A stretch of DNA of 63,996 bases from assembly GCA_030430575.1 (NCBI GenBank), contig JAUIKF010000051.1:1-63996 (forward strand), given 5' to 3'. This document shows positions 40,829-53,042 of the stretch, one piece after another. How positions within the stretch are numbered: position 1 is the first letter of the stretch; each line of letters starts with the position of its first letter. The notes beneath the pieces are model-generated. The model was given only the letters and a program-made list of their open reading frames with translations, did not search any database and was not told the DNA's origin. Source of the stretch: Bacteroidia bacterium (GTDB lineage: Bacteria > Bacteroidota > Bacteroidia > J057). The translations under genes were made by a program, and so were the position numbers.

Positions 40829-40872
40829 TTGGCACTTCTTTTTTTCAGGTGATTGATTGCTCTTTAATTGTA

Positions 40873-40946
40873 GCCAACGCCCGCCTACCAGCCGGCCTAT
40901 TCTAACACGTCCTGGTGGGCGGCTGGGCGTGTAGGCAAGTGTTAGC
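40873..40946 (-). repeat. attC-like site 5
   Basis: 74 bases beginning four bases after the stop of the EAD gene. Minus strand: GCTAACACTTGCCTAC ... GTAGGCGGGCGTTGGC. The outer cores GCTAAC/GTTGGC and the inner CTTGCCTAC/GTAGGCGGG pair with offset bases. Ends 45 bases before the cyclase start. Confidence 0.8.
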
Positions 40947-40949
40947 TGT

Positions 40950-41777: not shown

Positions 41778-41798
41778 TCTAATTGGTTTTATATGACA

Positions 41799-41865
41799 GC
41801 TAACGGTCTCATGTAAACGCAGTATGGGCGCATAGCCCATGTTGCCGTTTTACACTTTGTTGAAC
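41799..41865 (-). repeat. attC-like site 4
   Basis: 67 bases. Minus strand: GTTCAACAAAGTGTAAAACG ... GCGTTTACATGAGACCGTTAGC. GTTCAAC at one end fits the canonical RYYYAAC; the other is GTTAGC. The inner GTGTAAAACG pairs with CGTTTACAT, and the centre forms a second hairpin ATGGGC/GCCCAT. Follows the invaded cassette and precedes the EAD gene. Confidence 0.85.
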
Positions 41866-41929
41866 GAAGCCCTTCGGGCAGCCCTTAGGTCAGTTCTGCT
41901 CTAGGATTCTGTCTATTTTAACAAAAAAT

Positions 41930-41980
41930 GCTTTCATAGAGAATTTGTCACCAAACAAATTTATAGAACCTATGAAAGCA
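41930..41980 (+). repeat. inverted repeat before the IS91 recombinase
   Basis: TGCTTTCATAG (41930-41940) and CTATGAAAGCA (41970-41980) form an 11-bp stem around a 29-base AT-rich loop and cover the recombinase start. It may be part of the element's left end or a translational control stem. The exact left end of the IS91-like element cannot be fixed from this sequence alone. Confidence 0.5.
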
Positions 41981-42862
41981 AAAGAATTAGAAAAGAACGT
42001 AGCTGGATTATCAGCTGTCTTATCGAAGATGTCTCAGCGGATGGCTTTGGCCAATTACGCTGAGAGCACGATTTCAAGTTATAGTCGAGCTGTTCGGCTG
42101 ATGGGAGTGAGCCTTCGACGGAGCTCAGGCTGAAAGTTAGGGAAAAGTCCTGAGAAAATCGATCAGGAAGAGCTACATGAGTATTTGTTGTCTATCAAGG
42201 ATCGTATGAGCCAAAGCTCGTGGCACACGATTCTCTTTGGGGTAAAATACTGTTACTGTGAAGTGTTGGATATGGCCGAGTTGGTCAATTCGCTTCCCAA
42301 ATCACGACGGGAACAACCGCTTCCTGTGGTGTTGAATCAGGGCGATTTAGGGTTGATTTTTGGTTCATGTCGGAGTTTGAAGCATCGTTGTATCTTCAAA
42401 TTGGCTTATGGGACAGGTCTTCGGATGAATGAGCTTCGGCAGCTTCGGATTGGAGATATTGATTCAGAACGACTTCAAATTCGCGTTGTTCAAGGCAAAG
42501 GTCGTAAGGATCGTTATGTGGTCTTGCCATCGAGTCTATTGGGTGAGCTTCGGAGTTATTATAAAGGGGTTCGACCAAAGGTTTATCTGTTTAATGGTCA
42601 GCGAAAAGGAGAGCCGATGGCGCGGCGTTCCATGCAACATGCCCTAAAAGCCTTGTTAAAACGCAGCGGACTTGAGAAGCCTGTAACGATGCACAGTTTT
42701 CGCCATACTTTCGCCTGTCATGCGCTGGAGATGGGCATGGACATAGTGACTTTGCAGCACTTACTTGGCCATGCCCATTTGAGCACAACGCTGATCTACC
42801 TCAAAGTAGCAGAAGCCCCAAAGAGCAATTGGTTCAGCCCGCTTGACCTTTGGCCGCACTGA
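41972..42862 (+). pseudogene. tyrosine recombinase of the IS91-like element, with a 24-base repeat insertion
   Basis: Reads from ATG at 41972 (MKAKELEKNVAGLSAVLSKM) to 42862 in one frame, broken only by TGA at 42131-42133. That stop is the last codon of a 24-base insertion at 42110-42133 (CCTTCGACGGAGCTCAGGCTGA-type) matching the dispersed short repeat. Without the insertion the protein reads VRLMGVKLGKSPEKIDQ and is a normal ~290-residue recombinase with R (YGTGLRMNEL), K (GKGRKDR), HxxR (HSFRHTF), H (LLGHAHLST) and Y (LIYLKV). The element type with an integrase before the Y-type transposase is well known. The stop overlaps the transposase start. Left alone, a restart at 42185 would give a C-terminal catalytic domain. 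Confidence 0.85.
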
Positions 42863-43962
42863 TGGGCCGTCCAAAACATGAAGTAGCAGAAGTGTTGGCT
42901 AAGTATGGACGTGATTTTTTGCAGGCTCACCCTCAGCCTGCCCATCATTTGCGAACCCTTGAAGCACTCAAGAAGTGCCGCACAGCTGCGTTGGGCGGGC
43001 ATATTGATGCCTGTGATAGCTGTGGGCATCAACGAATCTCGTATAACTCATGCAGGAATCGACATTGTCCCAAGTGTCAAGGACTCAATCAGCAGCGGTG
43101 GGTAGATGCCCGAGAAGCAGACCTGCTTCCAGTACCTTACTACCACTTGGTTTTCACCCTGCCTGATAAGCTCAATGGACTCTGCCTTGCCAATCCAAGG
43201 CAACTCTACCATCTCCTGTTCCGCTCAGCTTGGGAGACACTGCAAATCTTTGCAGCCGACCCTAAATACCTCGGTGCTCAAACAGGCATGGTAGCTGTTC
43301 TGCACACTTGGGGACAAAACCTCAGTTTGCATCCTCATCTGCATTGCATTGTGCCAGGAGGGGGCCTGACGCCTCAAGGTAACTGGCGGCATGGCAAGGG
43401 AAAGGGCAAATTCCTATTTCCTGTAAAGGCGATGAGCAAAGTCTTCCGAGCCAAATTTGTCCAAGGACTGAGGAAACTATACATCGAAGAGGCCCTTTGC
43501 TTTGCAGGTTTGGCTGCTGAGATTGAAGCCCCAAAGGACTTTGCTGCTTTGACCAGAAGTCTTTTTCGAAAGCCTTGGGTGATCTATGCAAAACAACCTT
43601 TTGCAGGGCCAGAGCAGGTGATCAGATACCTTGGCCAATATACGCATCGGATTGCCATTTCCAACCACCGGCTTCAGGAGGTCAACGAAGGCAAAGTCAC
43701 ATTCGCTTGGAAGGATTACCGCAAAAATGGCAAAAAGGGAAGCATGACGCTTTCGGCAAATGAGTTCCTTAGGCGATTTTGTTTACATATCCTGCCATCT
43801 GGATTTACCCGCTTGCGACATTATGGCATCTTGGCTTCAAGAAACAAAACCGATGCCTTGAAGAAAGCGCGCGAAAGCCTTGAGGTGGTTCCGCCACCCA
43901 AAAAAGAAACACTCACTTGGCAACAACTCCTCAAACAAACGACCTCAATCGATCTTGAAACA
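42862..43962 (+). pseudogene. IS91-family Y2 transposase, 5' part (split by IS630)
   Basis: Start at ATG 42862 (MGRPKHEVAEVLAKYGRDF), overlapping the recombinase stop as TGATG; a TTG at 42850 is also open. Shows the N-terminal zinc domain (CDSCGHQRISYNSCRNRHCP), the HUH motif HPHLHCIVPGGG near residue 158, and YLGQYTHRIAISNHR near residue 262 with the catalytic Tyr. IS91 transposases move the element by single-strand rolling-circle transfer. After codon 367 the IS630 element interrupts it; the sense continues at 45100-45186 as CPCCQEGKMHTIKTFPKA and a stop. So a 395-residue transposase was intact before the IS630 insertion. The frame now runs 17 codons into IS630. Confidence 0.9.
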
Positions 43963-45097
43963 TACTGCCCGCATTTGGGATTGAGAAATACTGGGGGGCA
44001 TTTATACCTCGCTTAGCTCAATATGAAAATTGAGTGTAAGGAGGGTATTTAATTGCGATTTGTACTTCCTGATATATTGAAAGAATTTCCCGATTTCACG
44101 CCTGAAAATGTCGTATGATTCGTAGTAGGCTGTTCGAATGACTTTCTTTTTCATGAACTTCCATAATCTTTCAATAAGATTAAGATTCGGCGCATAGGGG
44201 GGCAAATAGAGGATTTCGATTCTAGGATGGTCCTTGAGCCATTGTTTGAGGATTTTAGCACGATTGTAGGGGGCATTATCGACCACGACATAGAGCTTCT
44301 CTACCCCTGGATGCTTCTTTTCGATCTTGCTTAAGAGTCGAATGGTCGATTGGGCATTAACCCTTTTGGGGAAATCAGTAAAGACTTCTTCAACTTTATG
44401 AGCATTGATAGCCCCGTTGATATTGACACGTTTGCGCCCTGTATTGGCTTTAATCTCAAAGTCCTTGCCTCGTTTGATCCAACCCCGAGTAGGGGTCGTA
44501 TTATGCAATGGATGCACCCCATCAGCATAAAAAAGGGCTGCTTTCTCTTCTGCGACTTCTTCCAAAACGGGTTCGAGTACTTCCTCAACCCACTCAGTTT
44601 GAGCCACAGGATCAGATTTTGTGCCTGGATGGCGACTCTGCTTATAACTATAATCCAAGCGATGGAGTAAGGCCAACATCCCCCGCTCACTGTAATTCAC
44701 GCCAAATTTCGCCTTGACCCAAGCTGCAACCTCGGCACAACTTTGATATAAACGAGCATCCAATTCAGCTTCCAACAACACCAACTGATCATCCGAAAGA
44801 CGGCAACTCGAACCCATATAAGAGGTCGACAAATACTCATCAAGACTAGAAGAGGAAGTGTAGTGCGAGGCATAGCGGTAAACCGTTGATTCCCCAATGC
44901 CCAAGGCGAACGCTGTATCTTCTGCACTAAAACCACCACCAAGCATCAACGCAGCCGTCGCTTTTCTATAGACTTCTTTATCACGAGTACTCCGTTGGAT
45001 TTCTCGTAATTTCCCTTGTTCTTTATGACTAAGCTCGAAAGACATACTCAAAACTAGAAACCAAGTGGGTTTTTCCCAAATTCATGTGCGGGCAGTA
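43963..45097 (-). mobile_element. IS630-family insertion sequence inside the IS91-like element
   Basis: 1135 bases with terminal inverted repeats TACTGCCCGCA...TTTGGGA at both ends. The bases CA occur on both sides (43961-43962 and 45098-45099), and joining the two flanks there restores an unbroken IS91 transposase frame, which fixes the boundaries. One transposase gene fills it (44002-45051). The 2-base duplication is CA by this reading; most IS630 relatives duplicate TA, so the ends may be off by two bases. Confidence 0.85.
44002..45051 (-). CDS. IS630-family transposase
   Basis: 349 residues, full length. N-terminal helix-turn-helix (EDTAFALGIGESTVYRYASH), a second helical domain (YSERGMLALLHRLDYSYKQS), then the DDE catalytic core: first Asp in ALFYADGVHPLHNTTPTRGW, second in LYVVVDNAPYNRAK, Glu in YAPNLNLIERLWKFMKKKV. 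No frameshift, so it may be active. It is transcribed against the IS91 transposase. Two ATG codons at 45051 and 45045 are possible starts. Confidence 0.93.
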   Translation of the reverse strand: MSMSFELSHKEQGKLREIQRSTRDKEVYRKATAALMLGGGFSAEDTAFALGIGESTVYRYASHYTSSSSLDEYLSTSYMGSSCRLSDDQLVLLEAELDARLYQSCAEVAAWVKAKFGVNYSERGMLALLHRLDYSYKQSRHPGTKSDPVAQTEWVEEVLEPVLEEVAEEKAALFYADGVHPLHNTTPTRGWIKRGKDFEIKANTGRKRVNINGAINAHKVEEVFTDFPKRVNAQSTIRLLSKIEKKHPGVEKLYVVVDNAPYNRAKILKQWLKDHPRIEILYLPPYAPNLNLIERLWKFMKKKVIRTAYYESYDIFRREIGKFFQYIRKYKSQLNTLLTLNFHIELSEV

Positions 45098-45186
45098 CAT
45101 GTCCCTGTTGCCAAGAGGGAAAGATGCATACCATCAAAACCTTTCCCAAAGCCAGAAGTCCGCCGAAAGAACTCACTCAGGTATAA
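45098..45186 (+). pseudogene. IS91-family transposase, 3' part
   Basis: From 45100 the frame reads CPCCQEGKMHTIKTFPKARS then PPKELTQV and stop, the usual C-terminal zinc-finger-like CPCC end of IS91 transposases. It is the continuation of 42862-43962, separated by the IS630 element. The 250 bases after it up to the attC-like site at 45437 hold the right end of the IS91-like element, a copy of the short CCCTGAGCGTAGTCGAAGGG repeat at 45405, and no gene. Confidence 0.8.
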
Positions 45187-45436
45187 AACAAGCCCCTTCA
45201 GCTCCTAAAAGGTGTAGGGAATTGCTATGGCTTTCGCCCAATTTTTACCTCAAAAACTACAATTAAAACCCATTCAGCAAGATATGTGTAACCGCTATCA
45301 CCTCAATATCGAGTCCCAAAAACACCTAATCCAACTAGGGCGAAACAGAAAGTCCACATCTCCATCTTTTGTATCCCCATAGGGCAGAGCAGCCCTAGCC
45401 CGAAGCATGCCCTGAGCGTAGTCGAAGGGAGGCATC

Positions 45437-45502
45437 GTTCAACAAAGGATTAACGGCCGGAACGCGCCCTGCGGTCCCAGCCGTTAATCCTTAAATGTTA
45501 GC
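45437..45502 (-). repeat. attC-like site 3
   Basis: 66 bases, 17 bases after the stop of the 119-residue gene. Minus strand: GCTAACATTTAAGGATTAAC ... GCCGTTAATCCTTTGTTGAAC. The inner arms AAGGATTAACGGC/GCCGTTAATCCTT pair perfectly over 13 bases. The end core GTTGAAC fits canonical GTTRRRY. The downstream cassette now holds the IS91-like element. Confidence 0.85.
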
Positions 45503-45518
45503 TCCAGTTTTTTATTTT

Positions 45519-45878
45519 TTATTTTTTATTTTCTTCATCTTTATTTCTCTTCCACCTATCAGCCCTAAAATAGACTCGTTTCCTTAATTCTTCATAATCA
45601 TTTTTTACCATTATATTCCATTTACCAGCGGGTTCAAACCACTCCCAAATTTGAGTAAAGTCGGGAAAATTGTCATGTGATACATTGAATAGTTCTTCTT
45701 CGAAGTCCTCAATGAATTCTTTCAATATTAAGTTCGTGGGATCATTGATCTGATCTAAAATCTGGAAACTCACTTTTAAATCCTGAATCAAATCATATAA
45801 CTCAAACTTTGCCCAGAACTCAAGTTTAGAAAGTCTCGGTTTTTTGCCTTTTTTAAAGAAACGGTTAAGAAGTGACAT
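45519..45878 (-). CDS. cassette gene, unknown 119-residue protein
   Basis: MSLLNRFFKKGKKPRLSKLE then a helical, acidic protein with several Trp and Phe (EFWAKFELYDLIQDL, FTQIWEWFEPAGKWN) and a basic tail. No family recognised, no signal peptide. The start is 31 bases after attC-like site 2 and the stop 17 bases before site 3, so it is a single-gene cassette. The AT-rich composition differs from the host genes. Could be an immunity, antitoxin-like or accessory protein; this is a guess from context. Confidence 0.7.
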   Translation of the reverse strand: MSLLNRFFKKGKKPRLSKLEFWAKFELYDLIQDLKVSFQILDQINDPTNLILKEFIEDFEEELFNVSHDNFPDFTQIWEWFEPAGKWNIMVKNDYEELRKRVYFRADRWKRNKDEENKK

Positions 45879-45908
45879 TTTTAGTTGAGCTTGTTTTTAT
45901 TAATTGGT

Positions 45909-45975
45909 GCTAACGGCCTGCATAAATGGCGTTGCGAGCTTTTGCTCGCAATGAACATTTTATGCTTTGTTGGGC
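45909..45975 (-). repeat. attC-like site 2
   Basis: 67 bases. Minus strand begins GCCCAACAAAGCATAAAATG and ends CATTTATGCAGGCCGTTAGC; the middle is a hairpin TTGCGAGC/GCTCGCAA. GCCCAAC fits RYYYAAC exactly, and the three extra bases on the right arm give bulged bases as in attC bottom strands. The site overlaps the last codons of the TIR gene: PNKA and the stop lie within it. Confidence 0.88.
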
Positions 45976-46523
45976 ACAGTATTTATTCTTTTCAATGATT
46001 CTTCGATAGACTGTTTCAAGCAATCAACTAACTTTATGTGATACCTTTCTCTATTTGGATTCGGCAGGATATTTCCATTTGTGTTAAATCTTACCAAGTC
46101 AGCATATGTCATATCAGGTATGTGAGGACAACCAAAGTCATCTCCTTTAGGCATAAAAAATTGTCTTTGAGATATTTCTGGATGATTGTGAAAAGTACAA
46201 GGGTCTATTAAGATTGGAAATATTAGAAAATCTCCACAGTAGTCTTTGCAAATGAATTCTTTCAATTCATATTCAGCAATGTACTCTGAATAAAGGAAAC
46301 TACTACTAATCAATAAAACAGAAAAGTCACACTCTTTTACTTTTTCTTGAATCGCATTATGCCACATTGAACCAATTGGGATTTGGGTATCTTCCCATAT
46401 TTCCCACTCAATATCAAGATGCCTTGAATGTACTGATATTCCCTTATGAATTAGGTTGAAATAGAGTTTATCCGCATGTGCATAGGAAATAAACCCTTTA
46501 TATTTTTTGGCTTTATTTTCCAT
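45960..46523 (-). CDS. TIR-domain protein (cassette gene)
   Basis: 187 residues. KYKGFISYAHADKLYFNLIH is box 1 of a TIR domain; WEIWEDTQIPIGSMWHNAIQ, CDFSVLLISSSFLYSEYIAE and YELKEFICKDY follow, with the Glu of YELKEF in the place of the catalytic Glu of NAD-cleaving TIRs. No other domain is present. The start ATG overlaps the end of the other TIR gene by 11 bases, so one transcript and a shared cassette. The stop lies inside attC-like site 2. Known: bacterial TIR proteins cleave NAD or make cyclic-ADP-ribose-type signals in anti-phage immunity. Inferred role here: the same. Confidence 0.88.
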   Translation of the reverse strand: MENKAKKYKGFISYAHADKLYFNLIHKGISVHSRHLDIEWEIWEDTQIPIGSMWHNAIQEKVKECDFSVLLISSSFLYSEYIAEYELKEFICKDYCGDFLIFPILIDPCTFHNHPEISQRQFFMPKGDDFGCPHIPDMTYADLVRFNTNGNILPNPNRERYHIKLVDCLKQSIEESLKRINTVPNKA

Positions 46524-47118
46524 GCTTTTCAGTTTTTAGAATTTCTGAATCAATTTCAATTTTCGTTTTTAAAGATTTTTTTAAAGCATCCAATATTTTT
46601 GAGAATCTTTCTTCATCTTCTTTTATTGTATTTACATCTTTTAGAAAATTAAATAAATAAGTAATTAAGATTCTATTTGAAGAACACTTATTTATATCAA
46701 ATAGAGTTTTATATTCATTTTCTTCATTTGACTTCACCTTGTCTTTTAACAACCTTAATTCATTATCCCAGTACTCTATATATTCATTCCTTTTATTACC
46801 ATCAAAAATATTGGAATCTTTGATTAAAATAGGATAACAGTTATTTCTAAATTGTTTTGCACGAAAAAGTTCATTTAGTTCGAACATGCAATTTTGAGAT
46901 TTAAAAAATGAGTCATTCATCAGTAAGATGAAATAATTCATTTCATTTTTATTCTCAGCAAAATCATAAATCTCACCTTTATGTTCTAATGAGAGTTTTT
47001 CACATAAGAGTTTTGTTTCTTCTAAACTCTCTTTAATGTTTTTAAAGTATTCATCCATTTCTTCGGAATTTGAATAGGAGATAAATACTTTAGGTTCTAT
47101 TTTGTCTTTTTTTGACAT
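46513..47118 (-). CDS. TIR-like domain protein (cassette gene)
   Basis: Start set at 47118 (MSKKDKIEPKVFISYSNSEE), 25 bases after attC-like site 1; the frame upstream runs through that site. PKVFISYSNSEEMDEYFKN is TIR box 1, NYFILLMNDSFFKSQNCMFE then LNELF has the xxCxxEL pattern with a likely catalytic Glu. The C-terminal ~90 residues are helical and charged (DALKKSLKTKIEIDSEILK) and unknown. 201 residues, about 28% GC by eye. Two TIR-type genes in one cassette suggests a two-part system with one sensor or regulator and one effector. Confidence 0.82.
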   Translation of the reverse strand: MSKKDKIEPKVFISYSNSEEMDEYFKNIKESLEETKLLCEKLSLEHKGEIYDFAENKNEMNYFILLMNDSFFKSQNCMFELNELFRAKQFRNNCYPILIKDSNIFDGNKRNEYIEYWDNELRLLKDKVKSNEENEYKTLFDINKCSSNRILITYLFNFLKDVNTIKEDEERFSKILDALKKSLKTKIEIDSEILKTEKHGK

Positions 47119-47142
47119 GATTTTGTTTTTTTCATTTATTGT

Positions 47143-47212
47143 GCCCAACGGTTTGTATATGGTGCGTTGCCGTCCCGCAGGGCGGCTATGCACTATATAC
47201 TTTGTTGGCGGT
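47143..47212 (-). repeat. attC-like site 1
   Basis: 70 bases, 11 bases after the stop of the 359-residue gene. Minus strand: CCGCCAACAAAGTATATAGT ... CCATATACAAACCGTTGGGC, with a central hairpin GCCGCCCTGCGGGACGGC. GTTGGGC matches GTTRRRY. Arms AAAGTATATAGTGC and GCACCATATACAAAC pair with mismatches and bulges. Confidence 0.85.
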
Positions 47213-47222
47213 TCGTTATTTT

Positions 47223-48302
47223 TTAAAAATCAACATCTTCTTCATTCAGAACCATATTTTCAAGATAATCCAAAAGCTTCTTATGATTTTCGATTCCTGT
47301 TTGAATGACATTGTCAAGCGTTCGTTCGGGCATAAAAAATTCTCTTCCAATCATTTCATCAAATTCATCTTTTCTTTCCTTGAAAAATGGTACTTGTTGG
47401 TATAGTTGAGGGTGTAATTCAAGGTCAGCAATTTCCATTTTGTAAATTGAATCTCTTGCTTCCAAGTCGGACATTCCCATAGAAAATGACATAAAACCAC
47501 CTGCATTAAGGTTAAGAGCTGACATTACAGTATACTTGAAAGGGTCGTGTCCAATTCTCAACATCAATAATCTGTCCTTATACAAATTAAGATTAGAATT
47601 ATCTTGCTCAATAGCCTTACTAATGCATAAATAACTCACACTTGCCATCATTTGTAGAGTATCTATGTCGTCCGAAAGATTTTGGTCAAGCATCATTAAA
47701 AAAGCTGTACCAAGAGCAGAATAGTCGTTTACTTCTTTTAATTGACCTGGATTAGATTTTACAGAGCGATAAATTTGCACAAGCAATTGACGAGCATCTG
47801 TTACACTCTCTTGCTGATATTGTGCATTTGCTCTTTTGGCTAATGATACTATTTCTGGTTCATTTGAAGTTTCTTGATTATCACCCTTCAGATATTCAAT
47901 ATCAACGTTTCTGTCATGCATATGTAAAATGCAATTTTCCACTTCACCATTTTTAAACTTAATGGTCAATCCATAATCTTCACCATTGAAGTCCACCCAA
48001 CCAAATGGCGATTGAGCCTGAACAGGAAATCCTCTCAAAACTATTTTATCAGTAGTTTGACTAACAATTCGCATTGGTTTTGGTGTCATTTGAACATTGT
48101 TTTGCCAAACTGGGTGGTTTCCGTCCAAATTAAATACCGTTACAATATAACCGTCACCGCTACTAACGTTGTAGCCTTCACAACCATTAATGTTTGGCTC
48201 TACTTTTACTGCTCGACCTGCTCCACCGTGAGGACCCGAAACGTGATTACCATTTTCATATCTTAAATGGTCTGGTGATTTGAATACAAAGTCTAAATTC
48301 AT
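47223..48302 (-). CDS. first cassette gene, unknown 359-residue protein
   Basis: Residues 1-145 are beta-rich with many Gly, Asn and Asp (SGPHGGAGRAVKVEPNINGC, GYNVSSGDGYIVTVFNLDGN, WVDFNGEDYGLTIKFKNGEV). The rest is helical (YSALGTAFLMMLDQNLSDDI, ASVSYLCISKAIEQDNSNLN) with a conserved-looking DPFKYTVMSALNLNAGGFMS. No signal peptide, no known domain recognised. It starts 58 bases after the site that follows the recombinase and stops 11 bases before attC-like site 1. Being first in the array, it would be the newest cassette if new ones enter next to the recombinase. Confidence 0.8.
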   Translation of the reverse strand: MNLDFVFKSPDHLRYENGNHVSGPHGGAGRAVKVEPNINGCEGYNVSSGDGYIVTVFNLDGNHPVWQNNVQMTPKPMRIVSQTTDKIVLRGFPVQAQSPFGWVDFNGEDYGLTIKFKNGEVENCILHMHDRNVDIEYLKGDNQETSNEPEIVSLAKRANAQYQQESVTDARQLLVQIYRSVKSNPGQLKEVNDYSALGTAFLMMLDQNLSDDIDTLQMMASVSYLCISKAIEQDNSNLNLYKDRLLMLRIGHDPFKYTVMSALNLNAGGFMSFSMGMSDLEARDSIYKMEIADLELHPQLYQQVPFFKERKDEFDEMIGREFFMPERTLDNVIQTGIENHKKLLDYLENMVLNEEDVDF

Positions 48303-48359
48303 ATTTGGTTAATTTTTTATGTCAGATTTCAATTTGTTCTGAGTGTTTTTTTAATGACC

Positions 48360-48447
48360 GCCAACACTTGTGTATACGCCATATGGCGTGTATTTTCGCT
48401 ATATTTACATTCAATTAGGGCGTGTACTGGCGATATTTAATGTTAAG
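48360..48447 (-). repeat. attI/attC-like site next to the recombinase
   Basis: 88 bases, ten bases after the recombinase stop. Minus strand: CTTAACATTAAATATCGCCA ... CACGCCATATGGCGTATACAC then AAGTGTTGGC. Outer cores CTTAAC and GTTGGC are those of the array sites, but the body differs: it holds the 14-base palindrome ACGCCATATGGCGT. The 20-base stretch TACACGCCATATGGCGTATA is identical to part of the 77-base tandem repeat upstream of the recombinase. This makes it the best candidate for the primary insertion site. Confidence 0.75.
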
Positions 48448-48456
48448 ACGCCACGA

Positions 48457-49575
48457 TCATATCTCCAAAAAGTCCAAGGGACTTTTCTGTTTGTCCATGC
48501 CATGGTGTGTAATGTGTGTATATATTTCTGTGGTTTTGGATGATTCATGACCTAATAGTGCTTGTATGTATCTGAGACTACTTCCACGTTCTAACAAATG
48601 TGTGGCAAAGCTATGGCGTAAGGTATGAACCGTTGCATAAGGGTTTACCTTTGATTGTTGCTTTGCGCGGTTGAAGATATTTTGCACACTTCGCTTACTG
48701 TATTGTCCTCCATATTGTCCTTCAAATAACCAATCATTGGGTTTGTAAATTTTGTAATAATTGTGGAGATACGCAAGGGCTGTTTCGGAAAGAATGGTAT
48801 GACGGTCCTTTTTGCCCTTTCCTCCTTTAATAAAAATCTTCATCTGGGACTCATTGATGTCTTGGACTTTAAGGCGTACAAGTTCTCCTAAACGAAGGCC
48901 ACCTCCGTAGATTATTAAGAGGATACATTTATGCTTGAGATTGTCAACCGATTCAATTAGCCTCACTACCTCTTCCTCACTGAGTACATCTGGGAGCTGA
49001 AAAGGCTTCTTAGGACGATCCAAATAAACGACCATTCTCTCTCTTCCAAGTACCTGTTCATAGTAGCATTTGATGGCGTTGATGATTTGATTTTGGGTCG
49101 ACTCAGATACCCGGTCTTGTACGACTCGTTTGTGCATATATGCCTTTATCTGCTCGCCAGTGATGTTGGCAGGAGGAATATCGTTATAAAACAGGAGGAA
49201 CATTCTGAAATGAGACTTATAGCTTTTGATGGTATAAAGGCTATAGCGTTTGAGCATCAGTTTCTCTTCGAGGTCGGTAACGGCTTCGGGAAATTGGAGT
49301 GCGGATTGTTTCGGGGAGGCTACGCGATTAGGGGCTTTTTGATCAGCTTCCTCTTCTAGTCCATCAGTGACAAACTTGATTTTCTGGTAGAAAAAATGGT
49401 TCAATTTTTCTTCGGACCAGAAATTGGCTTTTCCAAGCCAGCATTTTCGCTCGGGATTCCACCAAAGGCCAGGTGCTTTCTTGAGGAGGGAGATAAGTTC
49501 TTGGTCATATTGGAACCGCAAGGCGATATGTGGGCGATTCCTGTGGGTAGTTTGATAAAGGGCAATGGTTTTCAT
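48457..49575 (-). CDS. tyrosine recombinase heading the cassette array
   Basis: 372 residues. An N-terminal ~75-residue module (HRNRPHIALRFQYDQELISL, GLWWNPERKCWLGK) precedes a SAM-like core-binding domain (TIKSYKSHFRMFLLFYNDIP). The catalytic set is complete: R228 (GGGLRLGELV), K253 or K256 (GGKGKKDR), H317 and R320 (HTLRHSF), H343 (LLGHESS) and Y352 (EIYTHI). The end KSPLDFLEI recalls the SPLD tail of integron integrases, but the ~20-35-residue insertion those carry before the HxxR box is absent. It is oriented like the cassettes. Known: XerC/D-like fold. Inferred: it recombines the attC-like sites. Alternative: it is itself a cassette gene. Confidence 0.9.
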   Translation of the reverse strand: MKTIALYQTTHRNRPHIALRFQYDQELISLLKKAPGLWWNPERKCWLGKANFWSEEKLNHFFYQKIKFVTDGLEEEADQKAPNRVASPKQSALQFPEAVTDLEEKLMLKRYSLYTIKSYKSHFRMFLLFYNDIPPANITGEQIKAYMHKRVVQDRVSESTQNQIINAIKCYYEQVLGRERMVVYLDRPKKPFQLPDVLSEEEVVRLIESVDNLKHKCILLIIYGGGLRLGELVRLKVQDINESQMKIFIKGGKGKKDRHTILSETALAYLHNYYKIYKPNDWLFEGQYGGQYSKRSVQNIFNRAKQQSKVNPYATVHTLRHSFATHLLERGSSLRYIQALLGHESSKTTEIYTHITHHGMDKQKSPLDFLEI

Positions 49576-49748
49576 AAGATTTGGTTTTCAGGCAAATAAG
49601 GAAGTTTAGGAAAAAGAGCTATGGAAAGTCCTCGTCCAGATTCACACAGAATTGTGCTGTTAAGCTAGGGGGATCTACTTATTGGGCCATCTCTAAAACA
49701 CTGATGGCCAGTTTGTTATGTTCTGGAAAATGGTGTTGTTAAAGACTG

Positions 49749-50050
49749 CGTATATACGCCTCACCATTGGCTACACGGCAATTATTGCCGTGAATACAGA
49801 ATATAGCTGGCTACACGCCATATGGCGTATATACGCCCCACCACTGGCTACACGGCAATTATTGCCGTGAATACAGAATATAGCTGGCTACACGCCATAT
49901 GGCGTATATACGCCCCACCACTGGCTACACGGCAATTATTGCCGTGAATACGCGATATAGCTGGCTACATGCCATATGGCGTATATACGCCCCTCCGCTG
50001 GCTACACGGCAATAATTGCCGTGAATACATGATATAGCCCGCTACCCGCA
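49749..50050. repeat. 77-bp tandem palindromic repeat upstream of the recombinase
   Basis: Just under four units with a period of exactly 77 bases (CGTATATACGCC at 49749, 49826, 49903, 49980). Each unit has two half-units starting GGCTACAC: one with ACGGCAATTATTGCCGT, the other with ACGCCATATGGCGT. In the last unit AATTATT has become AATAATT, which keeps the palindrome. The last half-unit is partial. The same ACGCCATATGGCGT palindrome is found after the recombinase. Between the repeat and the recombinase (49576-49748) I see no gene or clear motif. Confidence 0.9.
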
Positions 50051-50087
50051 ATTACCCCAACTACCTAAACCGCATCGCGGCCTTCAT

Positions 50088-53042
50088 TCAATATTCTCCC
50101 CCTAACGCCTCCCACAACACCTCCACTGGATGCAACGCCTTCACCGCTGTCCCGTCCAGAATCTGATGGCGACAGCTGGTACCTGGCGCAGCCACAGTTG
50201 CCTCCCCAGCCGCTCGCACCGCCGGAAACAGCACTAATTCCCCCACCTGCATGGACAGGTCATAGTGTTCCTTCTCATAGCCAAATGAGCCTGCCATGCC
50301 ACAGCAGCCAGAAGGGATGATTTCGGCGGTATAGTTTTGGGGTAAAGTGAGTAAGGTAAAGGAATGATCGGCACTGGAAAGCGCTTTCTGGTGGCAGTGT
50401 CCGTGCAGGACGATATGGCGTTTTTCTGTGGAAAACTGATCTGAAGTGATGCGTCCTGCCTCGATTTCTCGGGCGAGAAATTCATCGATGATCAAGGCAT
50501 TCGCTTTGAGGGCGCGCGCCGCTTCGCGGTCGCCTTCATCCACCAGTCGCGGATATTCATCGCGAAAACCCAGGATCGCCGACGGCTCTATGCCCACCAG
50601 CGGGACTTCTTCGCTGATCAGGTCTTTGAACGTCTGGACGTTGGCTGTCGCGAGGCGTTTGGCCATGGGCAGGAGGCCCTTCGAGATCGCCGCACGACCG
50701 CTTTCGGGGTGTTTGATCACCTTCACCTCATAGCCCAAAGCCGTGAGCAGTTGAATGGATTTGATGCCGATATGGGGCTCGTTGAGGTTGATGAATTCGT
50801 CGATATACAAATAGAGTTGCCCTTTCACTTCTCCTTTTACTACCAAGGTGTTTTTGTTTTTTCGCCACCATTGATGGAGGGTAGGGGAGGCGAGCTTGGG
50901 CAGGGAGCGCTCATGCGCTACGCCCATCATGCGCTTCATCAGCGGACTGGTGGCCTTGCCTTTGAGGAAGGCATTGGTAAGGCCGGGCCATATCGTGCCC
51001 AGCCCGTTGAGGCGGGCAAAATTGGCGAAGAGACGGGCGCGAAACGGCACGCCGTTCTTTTGATAGTACTGGTGCAGAAACTCTGCCTTAAGGCTAGCGA
51101 CGTCTACGTTGGACGGGCATTCGGAGACACATCCTTTGCAGGAAAGACAGAGGTCCATGACGTCTTTGATCTCTTGGTGGTCAAAGCGATTGCTTTTGGT
51201 AGAGCGCGTGAGGAACTCACGTAGGATATTGGCGCGGGCGCGGGTAGTCTCTTTCTCCTGGCGGGTCGCCATATAGCTGGGGCACATAGTGCCGCCAGAG
51301 ACGGGCAACTTGCGACAGTCGGCCGAACCGTTACACTTCTCCGCCATGCGGAGAATTCCCCCCACTTCATCAAAATTCATGATCGTGTCAAATTGTGCGG
51401 TTTCCTGATCTTCGCCGTAGCGAAGAGAGGTATCCATCGGGGGCGCATCGACGATCTTGCCAGGGTTGAACAGGTTCTTAGGGTCCCAGACCTGTTTAAG
51501 GCGCTGGAGCAGGCGGTAGTTGCGTTCACCTACCATCAGGGGGATAAACTCGGCCCGAACACGGCCGTCGCCGTGTTCACCACTCAGCGAACCGTTGTAT
51601 CGCTTTACTAGCTCCGCCGTCTCACGGGCGATCTCGCGGAAGAGCTTACGGTCTTCCTTTTTCTTCAAATCCAAAATGGGCCGTAAATGAATTTCTCCAG
51701 CCCCTGCATGGGCATAATACACCGAACGCTGCCCGTAACGATTCATCATCTCTGTGAATTCGCGGATGTAGGCGGGGAGCTCCTCGACGGTGACAGCGGT
51801 GTCTTCTATGACCGCGACCGCTTTGGGGTCGCCAGGGACGTTGGCGAGCAGGCCGAGACCCGCTTTGCGCAGCTCCCAGGCCTTTTTCATGTCCGCGCCG
51901 TATAGGCGTGGAAAGGCATAGCCATAACCCGCAGCTTTGAGATCTGACTCTAATTGATCAAATGCTTCCTCCACCTCGCTCAGCTCATTTGCCCCAAATT
52001 CGATCATCAATATGCCCTCCGGATCACCCTCTACAAAGAACCGATACGCCTCATACATACGGTGCCCTTTGGTACAATCCATCACGATCTTATCCATGAG
52101 TTCACACGCCCGGGGCTTATGCTTCATGGTGATGACGACGGCTTCGAGCGCTTTGTCAACCGAAGGAAAATGCACACACATCAAGCCCTTCTGGGAGGGG
52201 GGCAATGGGTCGCAATGGATCTTGATCTCGGTGATAAAGCACAATGTGCCTTCCGAGCCTGCAATGAGCTTGCAGAAGTTGAAGTCTTCTCCACCTCTGG
52301 TAAAGCGATTGCTTTCCAATAAGACATCGAGGGCATAGCCCGTATTCCGTCTGTGGATGCTCGATTTGGGGAATTCCTTACGGATTTCTTCCTGATGGTC
52401 TGGGCGGTGCAAAATTTCGACGATCTGACGATAAAGGGTGCCTTCCAAGGTAGGGAGGGTGCATTTGTGATCAAATTCCTCTCGGTTCACGGCTTTGAAT
52501 ACTGCCTCCGATCCATCACTGAGCAAGGCCGTCACTTCCAAAACATGGTCCCTCGTGGTCCCATAGACAATCGAATAAGAGCCACAAGAGTTATTGCCGA
52601 CCATACCGCCGATCATGGCGCGGTTGGCCGTCGAGGTATTAGGGCCAAAGAAGAGGTTATGTTCCTTGATATGGTGGTTCAATTCATCTCGGACGACGCC
52701 AGGCTGTACACGTACCCAGCCTTCTTCTGCATTGATCTCCAAGATATCAGTCATATACTTAGAGGCATCCACGACGATGCCACTGCCGACGCATTGGCCG
52801 GCTAGGGAGGTCCCCGCAGCGCGCGGAATGAGGGATACCCCTTCTTTCACCGCAAAGGCAATCAACTGACGAATGTCTTCCTTATGCTTGGGCAGTGCCA
52901 CTGCCAAGGGCAACTCGCGATAGACAGAGGCGTCTGTGGCGTAGATCGTCCGCATGGTGCGGTCATAGTACAGTTCACCTTCGAGCGAAGCGCGGAGTAT
53001 ATTGAGTTTGTATTGGAGATCAATGACGGATGGAGCGGCCAT
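50088..53042 (-). CDS. FAD-linked oxidase / Fe-S oxidoreductase fusion
   Basis: 984 residues, typical of the FAD-binding plus Fe-S-binding fusions near D-lactate dehydrogenase. The N-terminal FAD_binding_4 domain has LIPRAAGTSLAGQCVGSGIV and GMVGNNSCGSYSIVYGTTRD; the FAD-oxidase C domain has YYAHAGAGEIHLRPILDLKK and SGEHGDGRVR; then a ferredoxin-like pair CLSCKGCVSECPSNVDVASL and a C-terminal CCG domain, GHCHQKALSS and PSGCCGMAGSFGYEK. Such enzymes oxidise D-2-hydroxy acids (D-lactate, glycolate or 2-hydroxyglutarate) at the membrane and pass electrons to quinones. Substrate not fixed by sequence. It is read towards the 77-base repeat and its GC is high, unlike the adjacent array. Confidence 0.95.
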   Translation of the reverse strand: MAAPSVIDLQYKLNILRASLEGELYYDRTMRTIYATDASVYRELPLAVALPKHKEDIRQLIAFAVKEGVSLIPRAAGTSLAGQCVGSGIVVDASKYMTDILEINAEEGWVRVQPGVVRDELNHHIKEHNLFFGPNTSTANRAMIGGMVGNNSCGSYSIVYGTTRDHVLEVTALLSDGSEAVFKAVNREEFDHKCTLPTLEGTLYRQIVEILHRPDHQEEIRKEFPKSSIHRRNTGYALDVLLESNRFTRGGEDFNFCKLIAGSEGTLCFITEIKIHCDPLPPSQKGLMCVHFPSVDKALEAVVITMKHKPRACELMDKIVMDCTKGHRMYEAYRFFVEGDPEGILMIEFGANELSEVEEAFDQLESDLKAAGYGYAFPRLYGADMKKAWELRKAGLGLLANVPGDPKAVAVIEDTAVTVEELPAYIREFTEMMNRYGQRSVYYAHAGAGEIHLRPILDLKKKEDRKLFREIARETAELVKRYNGSLSGEHGDGRVRAEFIPLMVGERNYRLLQRLKQVWDPKNLFNPGKIVDAPPMDTSLRYGEDQETAQFDTIMNFDEVGGILRMAEKCNGSADCRKLPVSGGTMCPSYMATRQEKETTRARANILREFLTRSTKSNRFDHQEIKDVMDLCLSCKGCVSECPSNVDVASLKAEFLHQYYQKNGVPFRARLFANFARLNGLGTIWPGLTNAFLKGKATSPLMKRMMGVAHERSLPKLASPTLHQWWRKNKNTLVVKGEVKGQLYLYIDEFINLNEPHIGIKSIQLLTALGYEVKVIKHPESGRAAISKGLLPMAKRLATANVQTFKDLISEEVPLVGIEPSAILGFRDEYPRLVDEGDREAARALKANALIIDEFLAREIEAGRITSDQFSTEKRHIVLHGHCHQKALSSADHSFTLLTLPQNYTAEIIPSGCCGMAGSFGYEKEHYDLSMQVGELVLFPAVRAAGEATVAAPGTSCRHQILDGTAVKALHPVEVLWEALGGEY

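Follow-up and report, generated by a model that had tools for sequence, protein, structure and literature searches.

A tandem array of palindromes upstream of a tyrosine recombinase gene raises the question of whether the array serves that gene or has an origin of its own. We examined such a locus in a Bacteroidia genome of 8.16 Mb in 127 contigs, taking as our window the entire contig C80, a stretch of 63,996 nucleotides. In Tandem Repeats Finder, the array spans 49748-50049 (minus strand), with a period of 77, 3.9 copies, 93% matches and zero indels. The array of almost four copies with a 77-base period, described in a first-pass annotation of the sequence, is thus borne out at the position given there, except that it starts one base earlier. 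Its self-match is 0.933 at a shift of 77, compared to at most 0.40 for the best of 1000 dinucleotide-block shuffles over shifts of 20-149. Two minus-strand genes flank the array. The stop codon of a FAD-linked oxidase/iron-sulphur gene (50088-53042; ORF list and Pfam), which lies outside the system discussed here, is 38 bases away, and the start codon of the recombinase is 172 bases away.

Each unit contains three palindromes, one more than previously described. Palindrome A (CACGGCAATTATTGCCGTG) occupies 49774-49792 in the first copy and 49851-49869, 49928-49946 and 50005-50023 in the others. Palindrome B (TACACGCCATATGGCGTATATAC) is found at 49812-49834, 49889-49911 and, with one change, 49966-49988, and it is overlapped by palindrome C (GGCGTATATACGCC) at 49824-49837, 49901-49914 and 49978-49991; a further copy of C at 49748-49760 (GCGTATATACGCC) lacks the first G. 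On the minus strand, the unit divides into two half-units, one of 40 nt with palindrome A and one of 37 nt with palindromes B and C, each starting with GTAGC (GTAGCCAG in most) and carrying its palindrome at the end; Tandem Repeats Finder also gives periods of 37 and 40 for the array. Scanning the window with CACGGCAATWATTGCCGTG (palindrome A, up to three mismatches) yielded four matches, at 49774, 49851, 49928 and 50005. The scan with ACGCCATATGGCGT (palindrome B, up to two mismatches) matched at 49815, 49892 and 49969 (one mismatch), and additionally at 48376, outside the array. None of 100 shuffled windows had four matches to either pattern. The fourth copy had been thought to keep its pairing despite a base change. 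However, this change, T to A at unit position 36, falls on the unpaired centre of the odd-length palindrome A and is therefore neither compensatory nor evidence of conserved pairing, and the only change in a B stem, C to T at 49970, breaks a pair.

Comparison of the array with its own genome (E≤1) gave 18 matches, some of which are palindromic self-matches on the opposite strand. They group into eight repeat loci, on contigs C80, C117, C123, C29, C60, C15, C104 and C11, and into attI-like palindromes on C80, C117 and C79. C117 carries about 2.5 units and C123 about 1.4, C15 and C60 have single elements, and the copies on C29, C104 and C11 are partial or rearranged. Head-to-tail joining occurs at five of the eight loci. 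The single elements on C15 and C60, which are unrelated loci, are both exactly 75 bp long with identical inverted ends (TTGCGTRTA...TACACGCAA); they start with TTGCGTRTACACGCC and end with GGCTACACGCAA or CGCTACACGCAA, less differing leading bases. It follows from these ends that palindrome A is internal and that palindrome B arises where elements join. A single element has palindrome A at its centre and a half-palindrome at either end (TTGCGTRTACACGCC ... GGCTACACGCAA), and the half-palindromes of two joined elements make up B. The B junction reads GGCTACACGC[CA]ATATGGCGTATAYAC in C80, C117 and C123, with ATGCC in one C80 junction, and GCTACACGCAATGCGTATACACG in C29 and C11. Of 11 A palindromes, distributed over seven loci, nine are perfect over 19 nt.

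All copies inspected lie between ORFs. The C15 copy is located about 100 nt after a dnaA-like gene and the C123 copy about 8 nt past a histidine-kinase-like gene, and the C29 repeat contains the stop codon of a TetR-like gene (names read from the sequence, not from family searches). The 38 bases that separate the array from the oxidase stop codon and the strong folding of both strands (z = −8.7 and −7.3) are what would be expected of a transcribed structured RNA, or of a terminator or mRNA-stabilizing 3′ element of the oxidase gene. We nevertheless consider this highly improbable. The window has no Rfam match at gathering scores, no terminator-like site was found in the array when 49400-50300 was scanned with a consensus, and the C60 and C104 copies lie between divergent genes. 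The folding itself results from the palindromes being perfect and shows no function, so that of the cruciform or structured RNA originally suggested, the hairpin potential is real, but does not point to a role.

Outside its own genome, the repeat is missing from everything we searched. At E≤0.001 it was found in one of 60 genomes, its own, and in none of the 59 related ones, among which are a congener and 11 further members of the family. Palindrome A with its lead had no exact match in the genome_contigs set, from which the own genome may be absent, viral contigs contained no exact palindrome A, and plasmids and phages had no match to the array. A search of the literature available to us returned no paper on intergenic palindromic repeats in Saprospira, nor on integrons in Saprospiria. 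The same-genus genome offered no empty site for the C15 copy: the dnaA-like gene has 75% DNA identity there, and its downstream neighbor matches another contig. No movement or target duplication of the repeat was seen.

The surroundings of the array are integron-like. From the recombinase gene (48457-49575), an array of cassettes extends away from the repeat, recombinase and cassettes running in the same direction on the minus strand (41798-49575). An attI-like site at 48358-48400 consists of AAATACACGCCATATGGCGTATACAC followed by AAGTG^TTGGCG; it reads AAATACACGCCATATGGCGTATACACAAGTG^TTGGCG, with the crossover provisionally placed at 48365/48364 from homologues and known integrons. The first cassette gene (47223-48302, 359 aa) has no family in Pfam, NCBIfam or PADLOC and is followed by an attC-like hairpin of 68 nt at 47143-47210 (CCAACAAAG...CCGTTGGG). 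The second cassette (45960-47193) comprises two overlapping TIR-type genes, of which 45960-46523 exceeds the Pfam cut-off and 46513-47193 falls below it (26.8 vs 28 bits). By the longest-ORF rule the latter starts within the attC, and its true start is likely further on. The second of the two TIR-type genes matches ThsB1, a known anti-phage type (PADLOC, E 3e-12). Another 68-nt hairpin at 45908-45975 (CCAACAAAG...CCGTTAGC) precedes the third cassette gene (45519-45878, 119 aa), which likewise has no family in these three resources. Two further hairpins are located at 45437-45503 (67 nt, orientation ambiguous) and, beyond IS91/IS630 insertions, at 41798-41865 (68 nt). The inserted stretch, 41855-45437, holds an IS91-type element (a tyrosine recombinase with one in-frame stop and a Y2 transposase) and an IS630-type transposase; the two hairpins enclosing it each abut GTTGAACGA. 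A hairpin at 40872-40947 may be a fifth attC and is excluded from our count.

We accepted these attC-like sites, found in hairpin and pattern scans, by their equal length, common ends and position. A strict attC pattern had six matches in the own genome, three of them within 7 kb of the recombinase and all of 63 nt, and one in the reversed control. Loose scans were near noise overall and were used only for recurring lengths and sequences: for the window they returned 15 rows where shuffles averaged 12.0, and for 29 stretches 108 matches where shuffles had 86, so that single matches mean little. Of two further scans, one gave seven downstream matches in 15 loci; the other had 16 matches over 66.8 kb on the downstream side and 21 over 115 kb upstream, with four in shuffles.

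Homologues of the recombinase (E≤1e-40) are present in 32 of the 60 genomes, including its own, at 47 places in total. From the 46 places outside the own genome we took 20 regions, one of which (L083) was left out of the counts as a match lacking the N-terminal part; together with the window, the remaining 19 form a set of 20 loci. In homologues, attC-like sites were accepted by recurrent length and sequence. Seven of the 20 loci have such sites downstream of the recombinase (the window, L074, L076, L077, L084, L085, L091), L076 with a single one; besides the window's own genome, six others are thus represented. Those of L084, L085 and L091 (three, three and two sites, respectively) are 126 nt long and mutually alike across genomes. 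A strict reading is weakened by L082, whose one site of this recurrent 126-nt type is about 7 kb upstream of the recombinase. At 12 of 20 loci, the attI motif TATA-N3-8-GTTR lies downstream of the recombinase gene within 250 nt; upstream, it occurs at one (shuffles: mean 1.4, maximum 6). A looser motif, with 13 loci downstream and three upstream (shuffles: mean 3.9, maximum 9), did less well; both motifs were picked after viewing the data. In five of 20 loci the contig ends 38-229 bases past the recombinase stop codon, which downstream repeats would explain. The window thus shows two features of integrons: attC sites between cassettes beside the integrase, here as four hairpins of 67-68 nt, and an attI with a G^TTR crossover next to it, the motif being the one found downstream at 12 of 20 loci.

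The recombinase itself departs from known integron integrases. It is a protein of 372 aa in which Pfam recognizes a SAM-like domain and a catalytic domain (Phage_integrase), and residues 1-70, which we delimit as an N-terminal domain, have no Pfam match over cut-off. Its top NCBIfam score is to the XerA-like/integron integrase family (206.7 bits, cut-off 220); the integron integrase model TIGR02249 reaches 203 bits in two pieces, below its cut-off of 265. The predicted structure is closest to XerA and IntI4. In the alignment, residues 208-245 of IntI4 have no counterpart in the recombinase, a stretch which we take to hold the I2 helix. The distance from KGxKDR to HxLRHS is 64-65 residues in all 19 aligned proteins (the window's recombinase and 18 homologues; L083 and L087, for which no start codon was found, were left out). 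Judged by alignment and predicted structure, the recombinase is therefore not a canonical IntI: it lacks the segment taken to bear I2, which in canonical IntI belongs to an additional domain, and possesses a further domain at its N-terminus. According to PMC7790495, the I2 helix docks extrahelical attC bases.

The N-terminal domain is predicted to have the topology β-β-α-β-β-α-β, with pLDDT >80 in every ten-residue block. Neither Foldseek nor VIA-align assigned it a convincing fold, of HARP/XPB type or other. The best Foldseek match was SMARCAL1 HARP (E 0.2, probability 0.44), with none at E≤0.001. In VIA-align, the best match was 9oti_U (Z 6.4, rmsd 7.4, 82 aligned), and others included 9bln_W (Z 6.2, rmsd 3.0, 69 aligned) and the XPB N-terminus 2fz4 (Z 5.7, rmsd 2.7, 56 aligned); the matches, at Z 5-6.4, span several unrelated folds. 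Scanning genome_contigs with the recombinase returned a single weak relative (24% identity). On contig C62 of the own genome (L025 1501-1620) there is a relic of the window's recombinase, 40 residues long and 73% identical.

What connects the array to this system is palindrome B, which is identical in 22 of 23 bases to the attI-like palindrome on the other side of the recombinase gene; array junctions and attI-like site have TACACGCCATATGGCGTATA[CT]AC in common, with one difference in 23. The pattern TACACGCN{2,8}GCGTATA has ten sites in the own genome, seven of them array junctions and three attI-like sites (C80:48373, C117:34853, C79:64170), and none in the 12 other genomes of the family; the reversed control has one site in the own genome and four in the other 12. 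Comparing the attI-like site with the 900 nt upstream of the recombinase gave a best local score of 20.5, against a shuffle maximum of 11.0 (0/100 reaching the observed score). The same comparison at 13 loci with homologues gave best scores that were reached by 5 (L085) to 99 of 100 shuffles. By this measure, the resemblance of the upstream flank to the attI-like site sets this genome apart. The likeness extends to the junction palindrome and not to the recombination core: around the B junctions of the array there is neither the G^TTR crossover that attI and attC sites have nor the AAC...GTT core, and no gene lies inside the array. Since B so closely resembles the attI-like palindrome of the neighboring integron-like system, the element and the site are most likely of one origin.

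Contig C117 repeats the arrangement of the window in the same order and orientation: an array is followed after about 60 bp by an attI-like site and then by GTTGAAC. The window's recombinase does not lie between them; about 280 bp from the array begins part of another tyrosine recombinase (38% identical), which runs off the contig. Among the remaining loci, the C104 copy is about 0.6 kb from an attC-like hairpin and the C11 copy begins 3-5 nt past a hairpin of a type that C104 has as well. This hairpin (AAGATTTACATCTG...; L032 7115, L034 7832), which lies about 1.5 kb from the C104 copy, is followed by GTTGAAC in L032 and may thus be an attC relative. Around the other four of the eight copies (C15, C29, C60, C123), no accepted att feature was found in 14-16 kb.

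Solo attI-like sites also occur elsewhere. The genome G007, from another genus of the family, has the attI-like palindrome TATACGCAATATTGCGTATA beside the recombinase and in two further exact copies, each with GTT within 10 bases after it. These three sites come without an array of the palindrome, and no recombinase match is listed for the contigs with the extra copies (L125 1501, L128 1501). Judged by eye, the L125 copy seems to come after the end of another gene. PMC12901181 describes delta-attI-type cassettes of mobile integrons, resistance cassettes on which IntI1 acts. The attI copies away from an integrase (C117 and C79 here, C40 and C64 in G007) are similar to these; however, the solo sites here are followed by a presumed insertion sequence or other DNA.

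The presumed insertion sequence, with a tyrosine recombinase, is seen in three copies (L027 7840-8070, L033 7150-7325, L096 1500-1627), all of which run off their contigs. TTGAAC precedes the start of all three, and two of them stand at solo attI-like sites. We considered and rejected the attI-like palindrome as an end of this insertion sequence, as the C55 copy starts at TTGAAC without the palindrome.

Does the array then bind the recombinase, act as an operator for the gene 172 bases away, or provide accessory integration sites? Its position upstream of the gene and the near-identity of B to the attI-like palindrome would fit, as would C117, where an array lies close to both an attI-like site and another recombinase fragment. 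However, the array was not found upstream of any of the 19 homologues in up to 1 kb of sequence (two loci offered 916 and 400 bases), the core of palindrome A is absent within 3 kb of these genes, and copies of the repeat are present at loci without such a gene. The half-unit spacings of 37 and 40 bp are, by simple arithmetic, not whole helical turns. Upstream tandem repeats of period ≥12 do occur at three of the 19 homologue loci (Tandem Repeats Finder), with periods differing from that of the array: L089 has an unrelated 42-nt repeat of 8.2 copies about 520-860 nt upstream of the recombinase, and L076 and L077 have short tandems of 14 and 22 nt. An operator or binding array conserved with the recombinase is thus rejected, and any role of the kinds just named is very unlikely. 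The first-pass annotation had named a recombinase binding array as one of several options, to be given up if the units were scattered without a link to the recombinase or missing next to close homologues. Both turned out to be so: the units are scattered over seven other loci, where only C117 has another recombinase close by, and they are absent beside the homologues, which leaves a dedicated conserved binding array or operator set unsupported and a dedicated control array for the recombinase improbable. What survives of the proposed link is the resemblance of B to the attI-like palindrome.

The annotation's statement that no known repeat class fits comes close to the truth, as the definitions of REP elements and MITEs apply only in part. 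The repeat is similar to REP, BIME and REPIN elements in its short intergenic palindromic units, single and in tandem clusters, its restriction to one genome and the GTAG beside its palindromes. In REP elements, the GTAG tag lies on the 5′ side of the stem-loop, whereas here GTAG stands directly 3′ of palindromes A and B (minus strand). Further, there are only eight loci, and the unit combines two different palindromes. For the GTAG superfamily, PMC3733652 describes stem-loops tagged with GTAG at one terminus and a RAYT (Y1) transposase gene flanked by the repeat. The three PF01797 matches in the own genome are on C47, C77 and C73, contigs that hold no copy of the repeat. With no Y1 gene on any contig that carries a copy, we rejected a RAYT-driven REP. 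To MITEs the repeat is similar as a 75-bp non-coding element with 9-bp inverted ends (TTGCGTGTA/TACACGCAA), at constant positions in the C15 and C60 elements, and several genomic copies. These inverted ends are the one MITE feature that it was seen to share among those examined. It differs from MITEs in its head-to-tail joining at five of eight loci; no target duplication was seen by eye at C15 and C60.

An ordinary REP/MITE-type repeat moved by an unrelated transposase would account for the inverted ends, for the intergenic location at all loci read, past stop codons in the window, C123 and C15 and across one in C29, and for the four of eight copies away from any accepted att feature. The attI-like palindromes would then have been seeded by the repeat or have converged with it, and the integron recombinase would never act on it. 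We regard this as a possibility to be taken seriously, if a somewhat doubtful one. All PF01797 matches are on contigs without the repeat, the polarity of the REP tag is reversed, no target duplication was seen, and the 18 own-genome matches (E≤1) include no transposase or insertion sequence with the ends of the repeat, a search that diverged ends could escape.

In our reading, the array is the local amplification, beside a non-canonical integron, of a dispersed element that is specific to this genome, resembles MITEs and REPs and carries palindromes of att type. The observations are the array itself, the structure and scattering of its copies, the negative searches of other genomes, the match to the att palindrome and the integron-like surroundings. 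Beyond these we infer a possible mechanism: a small non-coding element of 75-77 bp, specific to this genome, would have been amplified locally, head to tail, to give the array. The element would be, or have been, mobile and would spread and form tandems through recombination at B-type palindromes, the enzyme perhaps being the recombinase of this integron or a relative. That the repeat shares its origin with the site-specific recombination system and was probably moved by it is a plausible proposition, which we hold tentatively. It is rather unlikely that the system goes further and represents a second kind of integron, whose recombinase would read folded attC hairpins without I2, via its added N-terminal domain, and in which the 75-77-bp repeats would be its geneless passengers with att palindromes, scattered and tandemized by the enzyme.

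If the integron recombinase does move the repeat, the latter would be a selfish element living on a gene-capture system, and the enzyme would be able to spread palindromes beyond cassette arrays. The unusual integron may be of greater importance than the array. Independently of the repeat, an integron-like system with a recombinase lacking I2 would challenge the view, as presented in PMC7790495, that the acquisition of I2 enabled single-strand attC recombination.
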